A DNA stretch of 64,000 bases from Desulfobotulus pelophilus (GTDB lineage Bacteria; Desulfobacterota; Desulfobacteria; Desulfobacterales; ASO4-4). The DNA is taken from positions 1 to 64,000 of the forward strand of contig NZ_JAPFPW010000009.1 in NCBI RefSeq assembly GCF_026155325.1, given 5' to 3'. This document shows, one piece after another, positions 3,709-62,434 of this stretch. The notes below the pieces were generated by a model that searched no databases, was not told the DNA's origin, and saw only the letters and a list, made by a program, of their open reading frames with translations. How positions within the stretch are numbered: position 1 is the first letter of the stretch; the number at the start of each line of letters is the position of its first letter. Made by a program: the position numbers and the translations under genes.

Positions 3709-3770
3709 GCGTGGCGGGTAACCATTGTGTTCTGGATGGCTGTATGGGATTTCGGTTGCCATTTTTTGGG

Positions 3771-4178
3771 CTATGCCGGACCGGCTCCATTAGAGAGAAC
3801 ATGTTTTTCCGGTATAAAACAGATAAATGTGCCTGAGAAAACAATTTTGGAAGCCACCCTGAGGGAGACAGCCACCTCATGTTTTTTTCCTTTGGAATGG
3901 AGTATTCTGGCTTCTGCTGTGATGCTATCTCCCAGTACAACGGGCTTTAGAAAACGGCATGAGCTTTCTCCGAGTACAACATTGGGGTGGTTGACTGCGA
4001 GCATGGCAGCATGATCCGCAAGTCCGAAAAGAAAACCACCATGGATCAGCCCGCTGGAATCAGCCACCATACAGTCCAGTGTCTGCATGGATAAGAGAGA
4101 GGTGCCGTTTTCTACCCGTTCGGGAGTACCACAGAGCTGGGTGTTCATGCTCTGATGTGTCTGGATATTCATTGACAA
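3771..4178 (-). CDS. Hotdog-fold (PaaI/4HBT-like) acyl-CoA thioesterase
   Basis: A 135-residue product. GLIHGGFLFGLADHAAMLAVN (about residues 43-63) is the typical hotdog active-site helix region, with HGG and an acidic residue, followed by the strand pattern FLKPVVLGDSITAEARI common to 4HBT thioesterases. The likely activity is hydrolysis of a small or aromatic acyl-CoA; the substrate cannot be read from sequence. A TTG at 4178 has AAAGGAG seven bases upstream; the ATG six bases later is an alternative start. It is monocistronic, with a shared terminator hairpin downstream. Confidence 0.8.
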   Translation of the reverse strand: MSMNIQTHQSMNTQLCGTPERVENGTSLLSMQTLDCMVADSSGLIHGGFLFGLADHAAMLAVNHPNVVLGESSCRFLKPVVLGDSITAEARILHSKGKKHEVAVSLRVASKIVFSGTFICFIPEKHVLSNGAGPA

Positions 4179-10690: not shown

Positions 10691-11562
10691 CCTCTCCCCT
10701 TCGTATCGGCCGTATCGACTATCTGAATGTATGGCCTGTTTATCACGGATTTGATCTCTGGGGTCCGCCGCCGGACACTCTGGTTCATACGGCTCCTCCT
10801 GCTGAACTGAACCGGATGCTGGAACAGGGTGAGCTTGATGTGTCGGCCGTATCAGCCTTTGCCTACGGGCAGAATTACCGGCACTGGCTTCTGCTCCCCG
10901 GGCTGGGTATCGGTTGCGATGGTCCTGTGATGAGTGTGCTTCTGGTCAGTAAACGGCCCATTCATGAGCTGCACGGTGCCAGGCTGGGGCTGAGTCGGGA
11001 ATCTGCCTCTGCAGCGCATCTTCTTCGCTATGTTCTCTCCATGGTCGGCGTGCATTGCTTTCTGGACACCATCCGGGTGAGGAGTCAGGAAGATCTTAGG
11101 GGCTTGGACGGTGGCCTGGTTATCGGAGACGCCGCACTCTGCGGTCACTGGTCTGCAGTATTCCCATGGGTGTATGATCTGGGCAGTATGTGGAAGGAAA
11201 TGACGGGCCTTCCTTTTGTTTTTGGTGTATGGGCCGTGCGCCGCAGTGTGCTGGAGGAAAGGCCTGCTGCCGTGCAAAAGGTCATTGCTGCGTTTCTGTC
11301 ATCCATGGCTCAGGGGGAGAAATCCCTTGCCGCCATAGCCCGGCGTTCCGTTAAGGAAAAGGGTCTGGATCCCGGGGTGGCAGCTGCCTATTTCCGGTGC
11401 CTGCAGTATGATCTGCCGCCCTCCCACATTCAGGGATTAAACAGATTTTTTCTTTGCATGACAGAAATGGGAGTGATGGAGGAGTGTCCTGCCCTGGATT
11501 TTGTCTGTCTGCGAAGTGCGGATTCCATCAGGCAATGTCCGGATTGTTTTTATGCTCTCTGA
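10687..11562 (+). CDS. mqnA: Chorismate dehydratase
   Basis: A 291-residue protein of the periplasmic-binding-protein fold used by MqnA/MqnD. The N-terminus RIGRIDYLNVWPVYHGF and the later FVFGVWAVRR match MqnA. It dehydrates chorismate to 3-[(1-carboxyvinyl)oxy]benzoate, the first step of the futalosine pathway. The ATG overlaps the deaminase stop by 4 bp. No signal peptide is present, consistent with a cytoplasmic enzyme. The last 35 bp overlap the 3' end of the opposite-strand protease gene, which leaves no room for a conventional terminator between them. Confidence 0.92.
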   Translation: MTSPLRIGRIDYLNVWPVYHGFDLWGPPPDTLVHTAPPAELNRMLEQGELDVSAVSAFAYGQNYRHWLLLPGLGIGCDGPVMSVLLVSKRPIHELHGARLGLSRESASAAHLLRYVLSMVGVHCFLDTIRVRSQEDLRGLDGGLVIGDAALCGHWSAVFPWVYDLGSMWKEMTGLPFVFGVWAVRRSVLEERPAAVQKVIAAFLSSMAQGEKSLAAIARRSVKEKGLDPGVAAAYFRCLQYDLPPSHIQGLNRFFLCMTEMGVMEECPALDFVCLRSADSIRQCPDCFYAL

Positions 11563-59665: not shown

Positions 59666-61153
59666 TTATAGGGGCTTGGGGCCTGCCAGCATGGCAAGGG
59701 CCATCTGAAGGGCTCTGGCCTTGTTCAGGGTTTCCTGTCTTTCGGTTTCAGGGTCGGAGTCTGCCACTATACCGGCACCGGCGCGTACGGTGAGGGTTTC
59801 ACCACGGATGATGGCAGTGCGGATGACAATGGCCAGATCCATGTTGCCGTTGAAGCTGAAATACCCCACAGCTCCGCCATAGGCGTCTCTGGGCTGGTCT
59901 TCGTTTTCCGCTATAATTTCCATGGCCCGGATTTTGGGTGCTCCGGAAAGGGTACCGGCGGGGAAGGTGGCTGCCACAAGGTGCAAGGCATCCAGTTCCG
60001 GCTTCAGCTGGGCTGTAATGTTGGAAACCAGATGCATGACATGGGAGTAGCGTTCCACCATCATAAGATCTGTTACCTGAACCGAGCCCGTTCGGGCAAT
60101 GCGGCCAAGGTCGTTGCGGCCAAGATCCACCAGCATGAGGTGTTCCGCCTTTTCCTTTTCATCCTTTAAAAGATCATCTGCAAGGCGGCGGTCTTCCGAA
60201 GGATTGAGGCCCCTTGGCCGGGTGCCTGCGATGGGTCTCAGTGTGGCAAGGCCTTCTTCAAGGCGTACCATGGTTTCCGGGGAAGAACCCACAAGGGTCT
60301 GGCCCCCGGCCCTGAGAAAGAAAAGATAGGGTGATGGATTGGTGTAACGCACAGCTCGGTACAGAGCTATGGGATCATCCGGAGCCGGACCTTCAAAGGA
60401 CTGGGAGATGACGGCCTGAATGATATCGCCTTCCATGATATGTTGTTTCACCTTTTCCACCCGCTCCCGGAAGATATCCGGCGGTGTCACGGGCTGGAGA
60501 ACCGTAGCCGGTCCCTGAAAGATACCTTCTTCAGGGGCAGGCTTTCTGACGGTTTCAAGCAGGGTATCCAGTCTGGCTTCTGCTGTGGTATAGGCGCTGT
60601 CCGCACTGGCTCCGTCTTCTGAAAAGGCAAGGCAGATGCAGGTCAGGGTGTGGCGGTGGTTGTCAAAGACCATGAGGGTGTCGGGGATGAGAAAGACTCC
60701 CAGTGGCCTTGATGGGGGAAGGCTGTGGGGAATTTTTTCAAAACTGCTTACCGCCTCATAGCTGAGATATCCCACAAGACCGCCGGGGAAGGGGGGCAGG
60801 TCTTCCAGCTCTGCCAGCCTGTAGCGCTGGAGAATCTGCCTCAGGGCAGGGGTGAAATCACCCTTGTGGGGAAGGATTTCTGCTGGGCCGGGACCGTGTT
60901 TTTCTATGCGGTCCTGATAAATCCGGACTTCAGACCGGAAACTGGTGCCAAGGAAGCTGTACCTTGCCCACCGCTCCCCACCTTCTACGGACTCAAACAG
61001 GAAGATGGGATCCTGGGAATTGTGAAAACGGCGCAGCATGGAGACGGGCGTTTCACTGTCCGCAAGGATGCGGGCACATAAAGGAACGACATTACATCCT
61101 TCCCTGATTTTTTCGTTGAAAAAGGATTTTTCCGGAAAGCGTTCAAGGAGCAT
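59666..61153 (-). CDS. trpE: Anthranilate synthase component I
   Basis: A 495-residue chorismate-binding enzyme. C-terminal catalytic motifs GGQTLVGSSPETMVRLEEG, PIAGTRPRG, HLMLVDLGRNDLGRIA and the AGAGIVADSDPE segment are complete. The N-terminal domain carries the region (after PVSMLRRF) where tryptophan binds for feedback control in homologues. It turns chorismate and ammonia into anthranilate. It is first in the operon, preceded by an attenuator leader. Confidence 0.97.
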   Translation of the reverse strand: MLLERFPEKSFFNEKIREGCNVVPLCARILADSETPVSMLRRFHNSQDPIFLFESVEGGERWARYSFLGTSFRSEVRIYQDRIEKHGPGPAEILPHKGDFTPALRQILQRYRLAELEDLPPFPGGLVGYLSYEAVSSFEKIPHSLPPSRPLGVFLIPDTLMVFDNHRHTLTCICLAFSEDGASADSAYTTAEARLDTLLETVRKPAPEEGIFQGPATVLQPVTPPDIFRERVEKVKQHIMEGDIIQAVISQSFEGPAPDDPIALYRAVRYTNPSPYLFFLRAGGQTLVGSSPETMVRLEEGLATLRPIAGTRPRGLNPSEDRRLADDLLKDEKEKAEHLMLVDLGRNDLGRIARTGSVQVTDLMMVERYSHVMHLVSNITAQLKPELDALHLVAATFPAGTLSGAPKIRAMEIIAENEDQPRDAYGGAVGYFSFNGNMDLAIVIRTAIIRGETLTVRAGAGIVADSDPETERQETLNKARALQMALAMLAGPKPL

Positions 61154-61240
61154 GGTATTGTATCCTTCAGGTTATGGGAATGAAGGGCTTTTGCATCCGG
61201 TCCGGAGACGGTTCCGGAGTTCACGCAAATGCCTTACAAT

Positions 61241-61272
61241 AAAAAAAGGGGCCGCGGATTTCCCGCAGCCCC
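61241..61272 (-). terminator. trp attenuator (leader intrinsic terminator)
   Basis: On the minus strand GGGGCTGCGG (61272-61263) pairs with CCGCGGCCCC (61257-61248; one U-G), loop of 5, followed by seven U residues (61247-61241). It lies between the leader peptide and trpE and is textbook in form. Confidence 0.92.
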
Positions 61273-61362
61273 TGATACCATATTGATAAAACTGTTCTGG
61301 CCTGCGGTGTCATGGGACACCCACGGGCCATCTGATCTCAGTCAGCCTGTGCCGTGGTGTCC
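61263..61362 (-). promoter_or_regulatory. trpL: Alternative RNA pairings of the trp leader
   Basis: Four mutually exclusive pairings are visible. 1:2 joins GGACACC-ACGG (61362-61352) to CCGT-(G)-GGTGTCC (61326-61315), 11 bp with one bulge. 2:3 joins GGTGTC (61321-61316) to GACACC (61311-61306). 3:4 joins CCGCAG (61307-61302) to CTGCGG (61268-61263), which is the 5' arm of the terminator, so it acts as an antiterminator. 4:5 is the terminator itself. The order implies attenuation in which ribosome stalling at the Trp codons leaves region 1 free (inference). Confidence 0.7.
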
Positions 61363-61422
61363 GAGGGATACGGGCCACCACCAGAGTGTAGGAATACATA
61401 TGGAATGGCAAAGGCTTTGCAT
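61342..61422 (-). CDS. trpL: trp leader peptide with three consecutive Trp codons
   Basis: A 26-residue frame starting at ATG 61422 and ending in TGA at 61344-61342. AGGA lies seven bases before the ATG. Codons 14-16 are TGG TGG TGG (61383-61375); the surrounding peptide is PTLWWWPVSLG. Position between a promoter and an intrinsic terminator ahead of trpE makes it a trp attenuation leader. It is too short for length-filtered gene calling. Confidence 0.93.
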   Translation of the reverse strand: MQSLCHSICIPTLWWWPVSLGHHGTG

Positions 61423-61488
61423 GATATTGTCCTGTTTTTTGTCAGTTTGTTATCTGGCCTTGTTTCTGTACATAGAAACATTTTTATG

Positions 61489-61516
61489 TATTTACCATAT
61501 GGGAAGGAGCTGTCAA
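61489..61516 (-). promoter_or_regulatory. Promoter of the trp operon
   Basis: Minus strand TTGACA (61516-61511), a 16-base spacer and TAAATA (61494-61489) preceded by TG, an extended -10. It lies 67 bp before the leader-peptide ATG. A GGCTGC/GCAGCC stem (61526-61545) sits just upstream of the -35; no TrpR-type operator is recognised. Confidence 0.6.
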
Positions 61517-61933
61517 GATTTTTTTGGCTGCGTGGTGGTGCAGCCATGGCAGAGTGTTTTCCGGCAAAGGCGGGGATACGTAACAGTTCATTTTCTGCTC
61601 AACGCAGATAAAACGGCCTGATCGTTGTGTTCGGATGGTAAAGAGCGGGTGCTTTGCCGAGAGCGTTTCGATCTTATTCAAATGTTTTACGGTGTGCGGG
61701 CTTGCAGCTTGGTAGAAAAAAATAGATTGTGCCGGTATTCGGTGAAAAAGGGGGCTGCTTTGGGCGCCATCCTTGTCAAGGGTCGTTTTTTATGCCAGAC
61801 AGATAAGCAATTTTGGGTGGATGATGTTGTTCCTTATTTACCCGTTTTGCCGGATACCCCCAGTGCCACTGTCAGCCGGAAATCATGGGGGCCAGAGTCA
61901 TGGGTAAAGAGGATAAATGGAAAAAGGATGATG
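61517..61933. other. Region between the trp promoter and pncC
   Basis: 417 bp. A frame opening at 61625 is in phase with pncC but has no family-like sequence before residue 103, so I treat it as leader. No clear pncC promoter is seen. It includes the GGCTGC/GCAGCC hairpin at 61526-61545. Confidence 0.45.
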
Positions 61934-62434
61934 ATGAATGAACGGCTGGACCCTGATGACTACGCAAAAGAGATTTCCTGTCTTCTGAGGAGGAGAGGCC
62001 GGACTCTGGCCCTCGCAGAAAGCTGCACAGGCGGCCTCATGGCCAGCCTGTTTACCTCCTATCCGGGAAGTTCTGATTTTTTCAAGCTTTCGGCGGTAAC
62101 CTACGCCAATGATGCCAAGCAAAGGATACTGGGCGTACGTTCCGAAACGCTTGTCCGGGAAGGCGCTGTCAGTGAGGCCGTAGCCGCAGAAATGGCAGCA
62201 GGAGCCCGTGGAGCAGGTGTGGCGGATTTGGGTCTCGCCACAACGGGTATTGCCGGTCCGGGAGGGGGAAGCAGCGAAAAACCAGTGGGTATGGTCTGTA
62301 TTGGACTTGCCGATCACAACAGAACGCTTTCCTGGACATTCGTGCGAAATGAAGGAGAGCGGAGATCCAATCAGCGTGTTTTTGCCGCTTTGGCATTGAA
62401 ACAGCTGTATCATTATCTCCTGGAGGAAAACTGA
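61934..62434 (+). CDS. pncC: Nicotinamide-nucleotide amidase (CinA C-terminal domain)
   Basis: About 166 residues from the third of three consecutive ATGs (61934), which has AAAGG six bases upstream. TLALAESCTGGLMASLFTSYPGSS is the CinA-C signature with the catalytic Ser, and TTGIAGPGGGSSEKPVGMV follows. It deamidates NMN to nicotinate mononucleotide in pyridine-nucleotide salvage. The MoeA-like N-terminal domain of full CinA is absent, as in PncC. The stop overlaps the next start by one base. Confidence 0.92.
   Translation: MNERLDPDDYAKEISCLLRRRGRTLALAESCTGGLMASLFTSYPGSSDFFKLSAVTYANDAKQRILGVRSETLVREGAVSEAVAAEMAAGARGAGVADLGLATTGIAGPGGGSSEKPVGMVCIGLADHNRTLSWTFVRNEGERRSNQRVFAALALKQLYHYLLEEN

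Follow-up and report, generated by a model that had tools for sequence, protein, structure and literature searches.

A probable tryptophan attenuator ahead of trpE in Desulfobotulus that appears to be a his-like member of the linked double-terminator switches of Desulfobacterota

The window analyzed here is a stretch of 64,000 nucleotides from Desulfobotulus pelophilus (contig NZ_JAPFPW010000009.1, positions 1 to 64,000), which carries a trpE gene on its minus strand with homologues of trpG, D, C, F, and B lying 3' of it. On the same strand, trpE is preceded by a leader ORF of 26 codons that starts 269 bases upstream of the gene, encodes the peptide MQSLCHSICIPTLWWWPVSLGHHGTG* (61422-61342) and contains three adjacent Trp codons (TGGTGGTGG, 61383-61375). 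This arrangement of a short ORF with tandem Trp codons directly 5' of a trp gene is the one expected of a classical ribosome-mediated trp attenuator. A divergent neighboring ORF (61625-62434, plus strand) presents a C-terminal part that resembles the CinA family by eye. The features of the locus are listed below; the brackets after segments B to F give the segment numbers of the original prediction and the equivalent E. coli regions.

61511-61516, minus strand: TTGACA, probable -35 element (by eye; a matching place exists in both congeners; the consensus scan lists no promoter)
61461-61480, minus strand: palindrome TGTTTCT-N6-AGAAACA at the trp promoter, predicted to be a probable TrpR operator (genome pattern search)
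61342-61422, minus strand: leader peptide ORF, 26 codons, Trp-Trp-Trp at codons 14-16 (ORF list and translation)
61376-61381, minus strand: segment A, GUGGUG inside the Trp codons, with CACCAC of B as partner (minimum-energy fold; duplex of the region about -17 kcal/mol, -16.9)
61352-61362, minus strand: segment B (1; E. coli region 2), GGACACCACGG, 11 bp with C; B:C is kept in relatives
61316-61330, minus strand: segment C (2; E. coli region 3), partner of B or D
61298-61311, minus strand: segment D (3; E. coli region 4), here without the directly adjoining U-tract that most relatives have (sequence)
61262-61272, minus strand: segment E (4), partner of D (antiterminator) or F (covariation, duplex folding)
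61248-61258, minus strand: segment F (5), 3' arm of the terminator (terminator scan, duplex folding)
61241-61247, minus strand: U7 tract of the terminator (sequence, terminator scan)
59666-61153, minus strand: trpE (anthranilate synthase component I), heading trpEGDCFB (NCBIfam; best models below curated cut-offs)

The original prediction described a leader with three TGG codons followed by five pairing segments, and all of these elements were found. Its 11-bp pairing of B with C (GGACACCACGG with CCGTGGGTGTCC; duplex of -19.7 kcal/mol with slightly longer stretches used) and its E:F terminator with U7, a hairpin of 11-12 bp, both stand. The C:D pairing is longer than the 6 bp proposed, with 13 pairs in three runs in the minimum-energy fold, and D:E consists of the proposed 6 bp followed, after a mismatch, by 2 more pairs (-16.4 kcal/mol). 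The E:F hairpin is the sole U-tract hairpin detected on the minus strand of 61150-61700. Folding of the 189-nt leader RNA beats 200 of 200 dinucleotide shuffles (z -4.37). The minimum-energy fold of the window contains A:B (GUGGUG, 61381-61376, with CACCAC), C:D, and E:F, so that the helices form two alternative sets, A:B/C:D/E:F and B:C/D:E. A possible sixth segment, A, would be added upstream of the five proposed ones, as the Trp codons can pair with segment B.

At the gathering score, the window yielded no Rfam match, including Trp_leader (which we take to be RF00513), T-box, and other described riboswitches, and Trp_leader was also absent from the list of matches at E<=10 for 61150-61560. 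The leader had been contrasted with that of E. coli on the grounds that a stalled ribosome would here leave the first segment free. This contrast does not hold: segment B, which starts 13 bases 3' of the last Trp codon, is the counterpart of E. coli region 2, a region likewise free on stalling, and the difference arose from a slip in numbering. We rejected an inverted E. coli logic on account of this slip and of the minimum-energy fold, in which the Trp codons pair with segment B. What had been called one extra switch is real in that there is one additional hairpin, as in the part of PMC1183508 that describes the his attenuator; the logic itself is canonical.

We then compared the leader with the regions upstream of trpE in related genomes. 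TrpE was found in 3/3 genomes of the family, 153/194 of the order, and 277/395 of the phylum. A total of 125 upstream regions were examined (57 search loci, 60 further stretches, and 8 of 46 extra loci), two of which were duplicates, leaving 123 distinct regions; one locus (L113) had no upstream bases. A leader peptide with hairpins was found before trpE in 94 of these 123 regions, 93 of them by rule (W-x0-1-W in a short ORF, with a terminator-like hairpin nearby) and one, L004, added by hand. Because acceptance required a nearby terminator-like hairpin, the hairpin counts given below are conditional on it, and some of the remaining upstream regions end at contig ends. Homologues of the leader are present in both Desulfobotulus congeners (the genome of the window and G001 belong to the same genus) and in many Desulfobacterales; L004 and L059 (NZ_VLLC01000015.1) have their last 300 upstream bases in common.

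Measured from the first Trp codon, the medians over the 94 leaders are 23-42 nt for B, 45 for the stop codon, and 76 for C. If it reaches 14 nt ahead, as assumed here, a ribosome that has arrived at the stop codon would therefore typically cover B but leave C uncovered. Fourteen leaders have their stop codon 15 to 27 nt after the first Trp codon, 5' of B or in its early part; in nine of these, the real B:C nevertheless outperforms 95 or more of 100 shuffles, which argues that B is conserved as RNA and not as peptide. This observation bears on the idea that the leader RNA or peptide acts in trans, as rnTrpL and peTrpL of Sinorhizobium reportedly do, with the hairpins kept for that role. Such a role as the explanation of the module is very improbable: a prematurely terminated leader RNA would indeed arise, and peTrpL acts in trans in S. 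meliloti according to the part of PMC7298713 concerned with it, but the peptide varies past the Trp run, B persists where it lies 3' of the stop codon, and a function in trans would not exclude attenuation.

In the automatic hairpin calls behind these comparisons, at most 5 of 100 shuffles did as well in 68 of the 94 leaders, a rough figure, as are the medians given above, since C:D was mis-set in an estimated 15 or so of the 94 leaders, including that of the window, and these rows were kept. For covariation, we used an alignment of 49 of the 80 leaders with two hairpins, picked by eye for clear hairpins and fewer near-duplicates, with 31 left out. All four helices covary, B:C least. The paired cells amounted to 92.0% for C:D, 96.9% for D:E, and 98.4% for E:F, with both-sided changes of 34 (9.5 +/- 2.4 in shuffles), 18 (5.5 +/- 1.9), and 40 (10.1 +/- 4.9), respectively, each exceeding 500 of 500 shuffles, in counts that are uncorrected for kinship among leaders. 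B:C was paired in 73.9% of cells, compared to at most 51.8% for slid versions, with 24 both-sided cells (12.0 +/- 3.6; reached by 0/500 shuffles) and a covariation score reached by 7/500; the Desulfobotulus rows are misaligned by about three columns in B, which counts against this helix. Pairs with a both-sided change and pair types were more often reached by shuffles (61 and 61 of 500 for D:E, 40 and 199 for B:C, 3 and 43 for C:D). D:E is the telling helix because it joins two hairpins that need no mutual match for themselves, although part of its signal follows from C:D, since C and E are alike. The original prediction had proposed covariation of its five segments as a check, and these results support it, with B and D conserved. 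They also indicate that the intrinsic terminator can be pre-empted by an alternative pairing, as in classical trp attenuators. Within the clade of Desulfobotulus and L034, one B:C pair steps by eye from A-U in the window to G.U in L003 and L004 and to G-C in L034, and about 7 of the 11 B:C pairs are kept in L003 (by eye).

Under the proposed mechanism, scarcity of Trp-tRNA would stall the ribosome on the Trp codons, covering A and leaving B free. B would capture C as soon as C is made, leaving D free to take E, which would block the E:F terminator and allow read-through. A ribosome at the stop codon would mask B, so that C:D would form, E would stay free, and E:F would terminate transcription. 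In an untranslated leader, A:B could form, followed by C:D and E:F, and this is the least certain step in the window.

We simulated the ribosome by removing the RNA up to its assumed edge and computed pairing at three stages of transcription. The ribosome footprint was assumed to extend 14 nt from the A-site codon, and all position computations rest on this one value; the first hairpin of L004 was placed by homology with L001. With C made and D not yet made, the mean probability that C pairs with the B zone was 0.60 for a ribosome stalled on the last Trp codon, 0.05 for one at the stop codon, and 0.13 without a ribosome. From stop to stall, this probability rose by more than 0.1 in 79 of 85 leaders and fell by more than 0.1 in none. 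The corresponding values of B:C in the window were 0.82, 0.00, and 0.74. Once D was made, stalling barely lowered C:D at equilibrium (mean probability of 0.85 when stalled and 0.91 at the stop; median change of 0.00, above 0.1 in 11 of 85 leaders), while in the window C:D stood at 0.27 with the ribosome on the last Trp codon, 0.87 on the first, and 0.88 at the stop. Because C:D mostly wins at equilibrium, B:C, once formed, would have to persist for a stall to act on the first terminator in relatives.

With E made and F not yet made, the probability of D:E in the window was 0.72 for a ribosome on the first or the last Trp codon, 0.07 at the stop, and 0.00 without a ribosome. Across 80 leaders, the means were 0.55, 0.19, and 0.18, and in 46 leaders a stalled ribosome gave a probability more than 0.1 higher than one at the stop; the change was not above 0.1 in the other 34, two of which were reversed. 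Scanning the A-site codon by codon along these 80 leaders, a computation which the position of the Trp codons enters through the axis alone, we found a high median only on or beside the Trp codons: the median was at most 0.04 up to offset -9, 0.09 at -6, then 0.60, 0.63, 0.68, 0.72, and 0.73 from -3 to +9, 0.47 at +12, and at most 0.02 from +15. The means followed the same course (0.20-0.32 before -3, 0.45-0.56 from -3 to +9, and 0.15-0.26 from +15) and stayed above zero outside the Trp zone, at 0.15-0.32. The scan of the window itself is less clean, with 0.24-0.57 at -36 to -12 and 0.54-0.70 at +9 to +21. Shuffling the stretch from the Trp codons to C ten times per leader reduced the mean contrast between stalled and finished ribosomes from 0.377 to -0.006. 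A contrast above 0.3, seen in 43 of the 80 real leaders, was kept by 6.3 on average after shuffling; for the sequence of the window, 2 of 10 shuffles remained above 0.6.

The predicted course of events, in which a stall leads through B:C and D:E to read-through and arrival at the stop leads through C:D to termination, is therefore supported in silico by the position computations, the shuffling, and the covariation. A ribosome on the regulatory codons thus favors the alternative pairing, as in classical trp attenuators, in the computations at the stages before F is made; with F made, E:F forms at equilibrium in every ribosome state in the window, which implies that control must be kinetic. It is improbable that this is a plain four-segment trp attenuator, in which only the alternatives around E:F would matter and B:C and C:D would be incidental or serve as an RNA polymerase pause hairpin. 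Although E:F is the lone hairpin with a U-tract on the minus strand of 61150-61700, and C:D could serve as a pause hairpin and wins at equilibrium once D is made, segments B, C, and D are conserved, B:C and D:E covary, and shuffling B abolishes the effect of position. Moreover, a stalled ribosome reaches neither D nor E and would thus have no influence on E:F without B:C.

The role of segment A is less clear-cut. When the B region of the window is shuffled, 30.5% of the resulting sequences pair with A no worse than the real one, and A:B is better than 95% of shuffles in just 14 of the 94 leaders. Before D is made, B:C reaches 0.74 in the window even without a ribosome, which speaks against A:B there, while the median in relatives is 0.02 without a ribosome and 0.63 with a stalled one (85 leaders). 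With the chain made up to E, the probability of D:E in the window without a ribosome is 0.00, so termination is predicted for an untranslated leader. A:B thus seems to be backed by folding in relatives and is ambiguous in the window. These results bear directly on a version with five segments, in which A would be idle in the window and an untranslated leader would be read through. This version is possible but rather doubtful: it fits the ribosome-free formation of B:C in the window, the failure to distinguish the window's A:B from shuffles, and the slightly greater stability of the B:C duplex (-19.7 vs. -16.9 kcal/mol for A:B), but it is at odds with the ribosome-free fold of longer RNA (A:B, C:D, and E:F, without D:E), with the low ribosome-free B:C of the relatives, and with the median probability of D:E of at most 0.04 for a ribosome that is still upstream in the 80-leader scan. 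Overall, we consider it likely that the element is a ribosome-mediated trp transcription attenuator with alternating segments A-F. What the analysis shows is the sequence and its conservation, the covariation in four helices, and a computed effect of where the ribosome sits; actual termination, the sensing of Trp-tRNA, the kinetics, and the pairing of A with B in the cell are inferred.

Most relatives differ from the window in the hairpin that involves D. A first hairpin was called in 85 of the 94 leaders and a second one in 87, and by automatic call at least six U's followed the first in 67/94, the second in 69/94, and both in 49/94. Several low U scores reflect misplaced hairpins, and a clear U-tract is visible by eye in L107, L132, L135, L137, and L150 despite a score of at most 4. 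Both U-tracts are present, for example, in L044, L107, and L126. The first hairpin has no directly adjoining U-tract in any of the three Desulfobotulus genomes or in L034, nor by eye in L145, and L024 is ambiguous by eye. In a TrpE tree of 61 rows, which is midpoint-rooted and has many unresolved inner forks, the three Desulfobotulus genomes and L034 form one clade with a support of 100/100 among lineages that mostly have the first U-tract. Because of this single clade, a loss of the first U-tract in the Desulfobotulus/L034 lineage is the simpler reading, although not proof. The module seems to derive from an ancestor whose C:D hairpin was itself a terminator, and this direction of change is the one we infer. 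In such an ancestral form, one ribosome position would have acted on two serial terminators; without the first U-tract, Desulfobotulus would have a his-type relay, probably in addition to TrpR at the promoter.

The evidence for TrpR comes from the palindrome TGTTTCT-N6-AGAAACA, which lies 3' of the promoter-like TTGACA and 5' of the leader. It is found 5' of trpE without mismatch in 3/3 Desulfobotulus genomes and directly 5' of trpR with 0-1 mismatch in 3/3 (L271-L273). Further palindromes with 0-1 mismatch occur, among the matches listed, at G000:C3:209355, G001:C6:157663, G002:C1:391539, and G002:C8:80830; only matches with 0-1 mismatch were used, since those with up to two are near background in the window's own genome (32 vs. 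27 for the reversed pattern). A TrpR-family gene, as expected for a TrpR-regulated promoter, is present in the genome, and its product scores above the cut-off of PF01371 and reaches 55.8 bits with TIGR01321 (cut-off of 67.25). On the 3' side of the trpR-like gene in L271 (G000:C26:21000-22261) lies another trpB homologue, in addition to the trpB of the window's operon. The family was matched in 24 of 194 genomes of the order, 22 of them above the cut-off, and because the Pfam model also matches B. subtilis, some of these matches may not be trp repressors. The trp operon is probably under both TrpR repression and attenuation, with TrpR binding predicted from the operator-like sequence. A rule by which the presence of TrpR would go with the absence of the first U-tract was not supported, as six relatives with a TrpR-family match keep the U-tract (L039, L040, L041, L108, L120, and L121).

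An extra, non-terminating C:D hairpin combined with D:E and E:F is one mark of a his-type attenuator with six segments, and all three are found here. Johnston et al. are said to have described in 1980 such an A-F scheme, with two relayed alternatives, for the Salmonella his operon. The element resembles the his attenuators of Salmonella and E. coli in its six proposed segments, its two relayed alternatives, and its extra hairpin; in contrast to them, it has Trp codons and precedes a trp operon, the extra hairpin of its relatives has a U-tract, and Desulfobotulus probably adds TrpR. With the E. coli trp attenuator, it has in common tandem Trp codons in region 1 and a region 2 that is free on stalling and masked at the stop, but its terminator is built from two added segments, E and F, and it has no Rfam match. 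According to the modelling in the relevant part of PMC1183508, the his leader has an extra hairpin between the pause hairpin and the terminator, which is absent from E. coli trp and was proposed to minimize basal read-through, and the combination of repression and attenuation in E. coli goes with an attenuator without this hairpin. As Desulfobotulus probably has both controls together with the extra hairpin, it is a simple copy of neither design.

Other described leaders present partial likenesses. The trp attenuators of Corynebacterium and Streptomyces, as outlined in the portion of PMC1262725 concerned, have double or triple UGG codons and reuse a short sequence in several pairings, but with a single terminator hairpin. 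The three-hairpin attenuator of C. glutamicum ilvBNC (PMC11857589, in the section describing it) similarly combines an anti-antiterminator, an antiterminator, and a terminator, but with fewer alternatives and for branched-chain amino acids. The rimP-leader of several Gammaproteobacteria has two tandem terminators and a potential antiterminator, but the corresponding text of PMC2965389 mentions no leader peptide with regulatory codons. Among the literature matches listed, we found no trp attenuator of Desulfobacterota and no linked tandem terminators with regulatory-codon leaders; such leaders may be described in the older comparative studies of Vitreschak et al. 2004, Merino et al. 2008, and Lopatovskaya et al. 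2010. The element appears to be a his-like version of the classical trp attenuator and one of the linked double-terminator switches of the phylum.

We searched for this family across the phylum using a covariance model built from the alignment above, whose matches within the order are therefore not independent. With rough E-values (E<=0.001), the model matched 174 of 395 genomes of the phylum (140 among the 328 good-quality ones), and many of the matched genomes had more than one element; in the genome of the window, it found one element, that of the window, and none of 23 genomes outside the group, a small control, was matched. We fetched 60 loci from the matches listed, mainly away from the known trpE places. 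The genes 3' of 59 fetched elements were trpE (16), aroF-type DAHP synthase (10), DeoC-type aldolase (10), trpD (9), a trpB-like PLP enzyme (8), a second type of DAHP synthase (4), ilvB (1), and prephenate dehydratase (1), based on Pfam for one member in five clusters and on naming by eye for trpE, trpD, and ilvB. None of 16 family or related loci had an Rfam match at the gathering score. Some leaders have runs of Trp and others runs of Phe/Tyr, usually together with Trp; examples of the latter are SFNFYYWYFYGIK (L256) and SYFYYFWYYWF (L257). Phe/Tyr-rich leaders precede DAHP synthase or aldolase-type genes in L200-L203, L205, L209, L211, L213, L228, L234, L238, L240-L243, L247, L256, and L257, all with the same hairpin chassis. 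In one further locus (L218), this module precedes an ilvB-like gene and has a leader rich in Val and Leu (LVLVVVVL); the computation showed no D:E switch for it.

In the 58 family elements that were scanned, the median probability of D:E was 0.68 on 228 regulatory codons and 0.01 both on 395 later codons and at 46 stops. The upstream side is less clean, with a median of 0.17 and a mean of 0.35 on 485 earlier codons. These totals include scans that were flat at zero, without any switch (L199, L202, L204, L218, L230, and L243), weak or misplaced (L206, L207, L213, L215, L217, L220, L225, L231, and L251), or flat and high (L219, L222, L247, and L248).

We lean slightly towards a single Desulfobacterota chassis, A-B-C-D(U)-E-F(U), in which one decision of the ribosome would set two linked terminators through the shared segment D. 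Only the leader codons would be exchanged among targets (Trp for trpE, trpD, trpB-like genes, and some DAHP synthases; Phe/Tyr, mostly with Trp, for other DAHP synthases and aldolase-type genes), and the window would be a derived form whose first terminator has decayed to a his-type relay. The equilibrium result for C:D and the B:C value of 0.74 in the window lowered our confidence in this reading and raised it for the five-segment version. If the single-chassis reading is true, one leader of the Phe/Tyr kind would read two or all three aromatic amino acids, and the window would present a visible route from a double terminator to a his-type attenuator. The family suggests how an attenuator with several switches may originate, as the relay hairpin of the window corresponds to a hairpin that, in relatives, has a U-tract and shares a strand with the next terminator. 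It is also supported by covariance and has no Rfam match in the loci tried, and it allows testing whether basal expression is reduced by a pair of linked terminators, an effect that the part of PMC1183508 cited above modelled for the extra his hairpin. Leaders combining Phe, Tyr, and Trp codons would constitute a simple gate on the common aromatic pathway. Finally, two genomes contain back-to-back matches to the covariance model (G041:C54:10792-10967 on the minus strand with 11174-11365 on the plus strand, and G139:C166:3364-3541 on the minus strand with 3746-3935 on the plus strand), where divergent operons may each carry the module.
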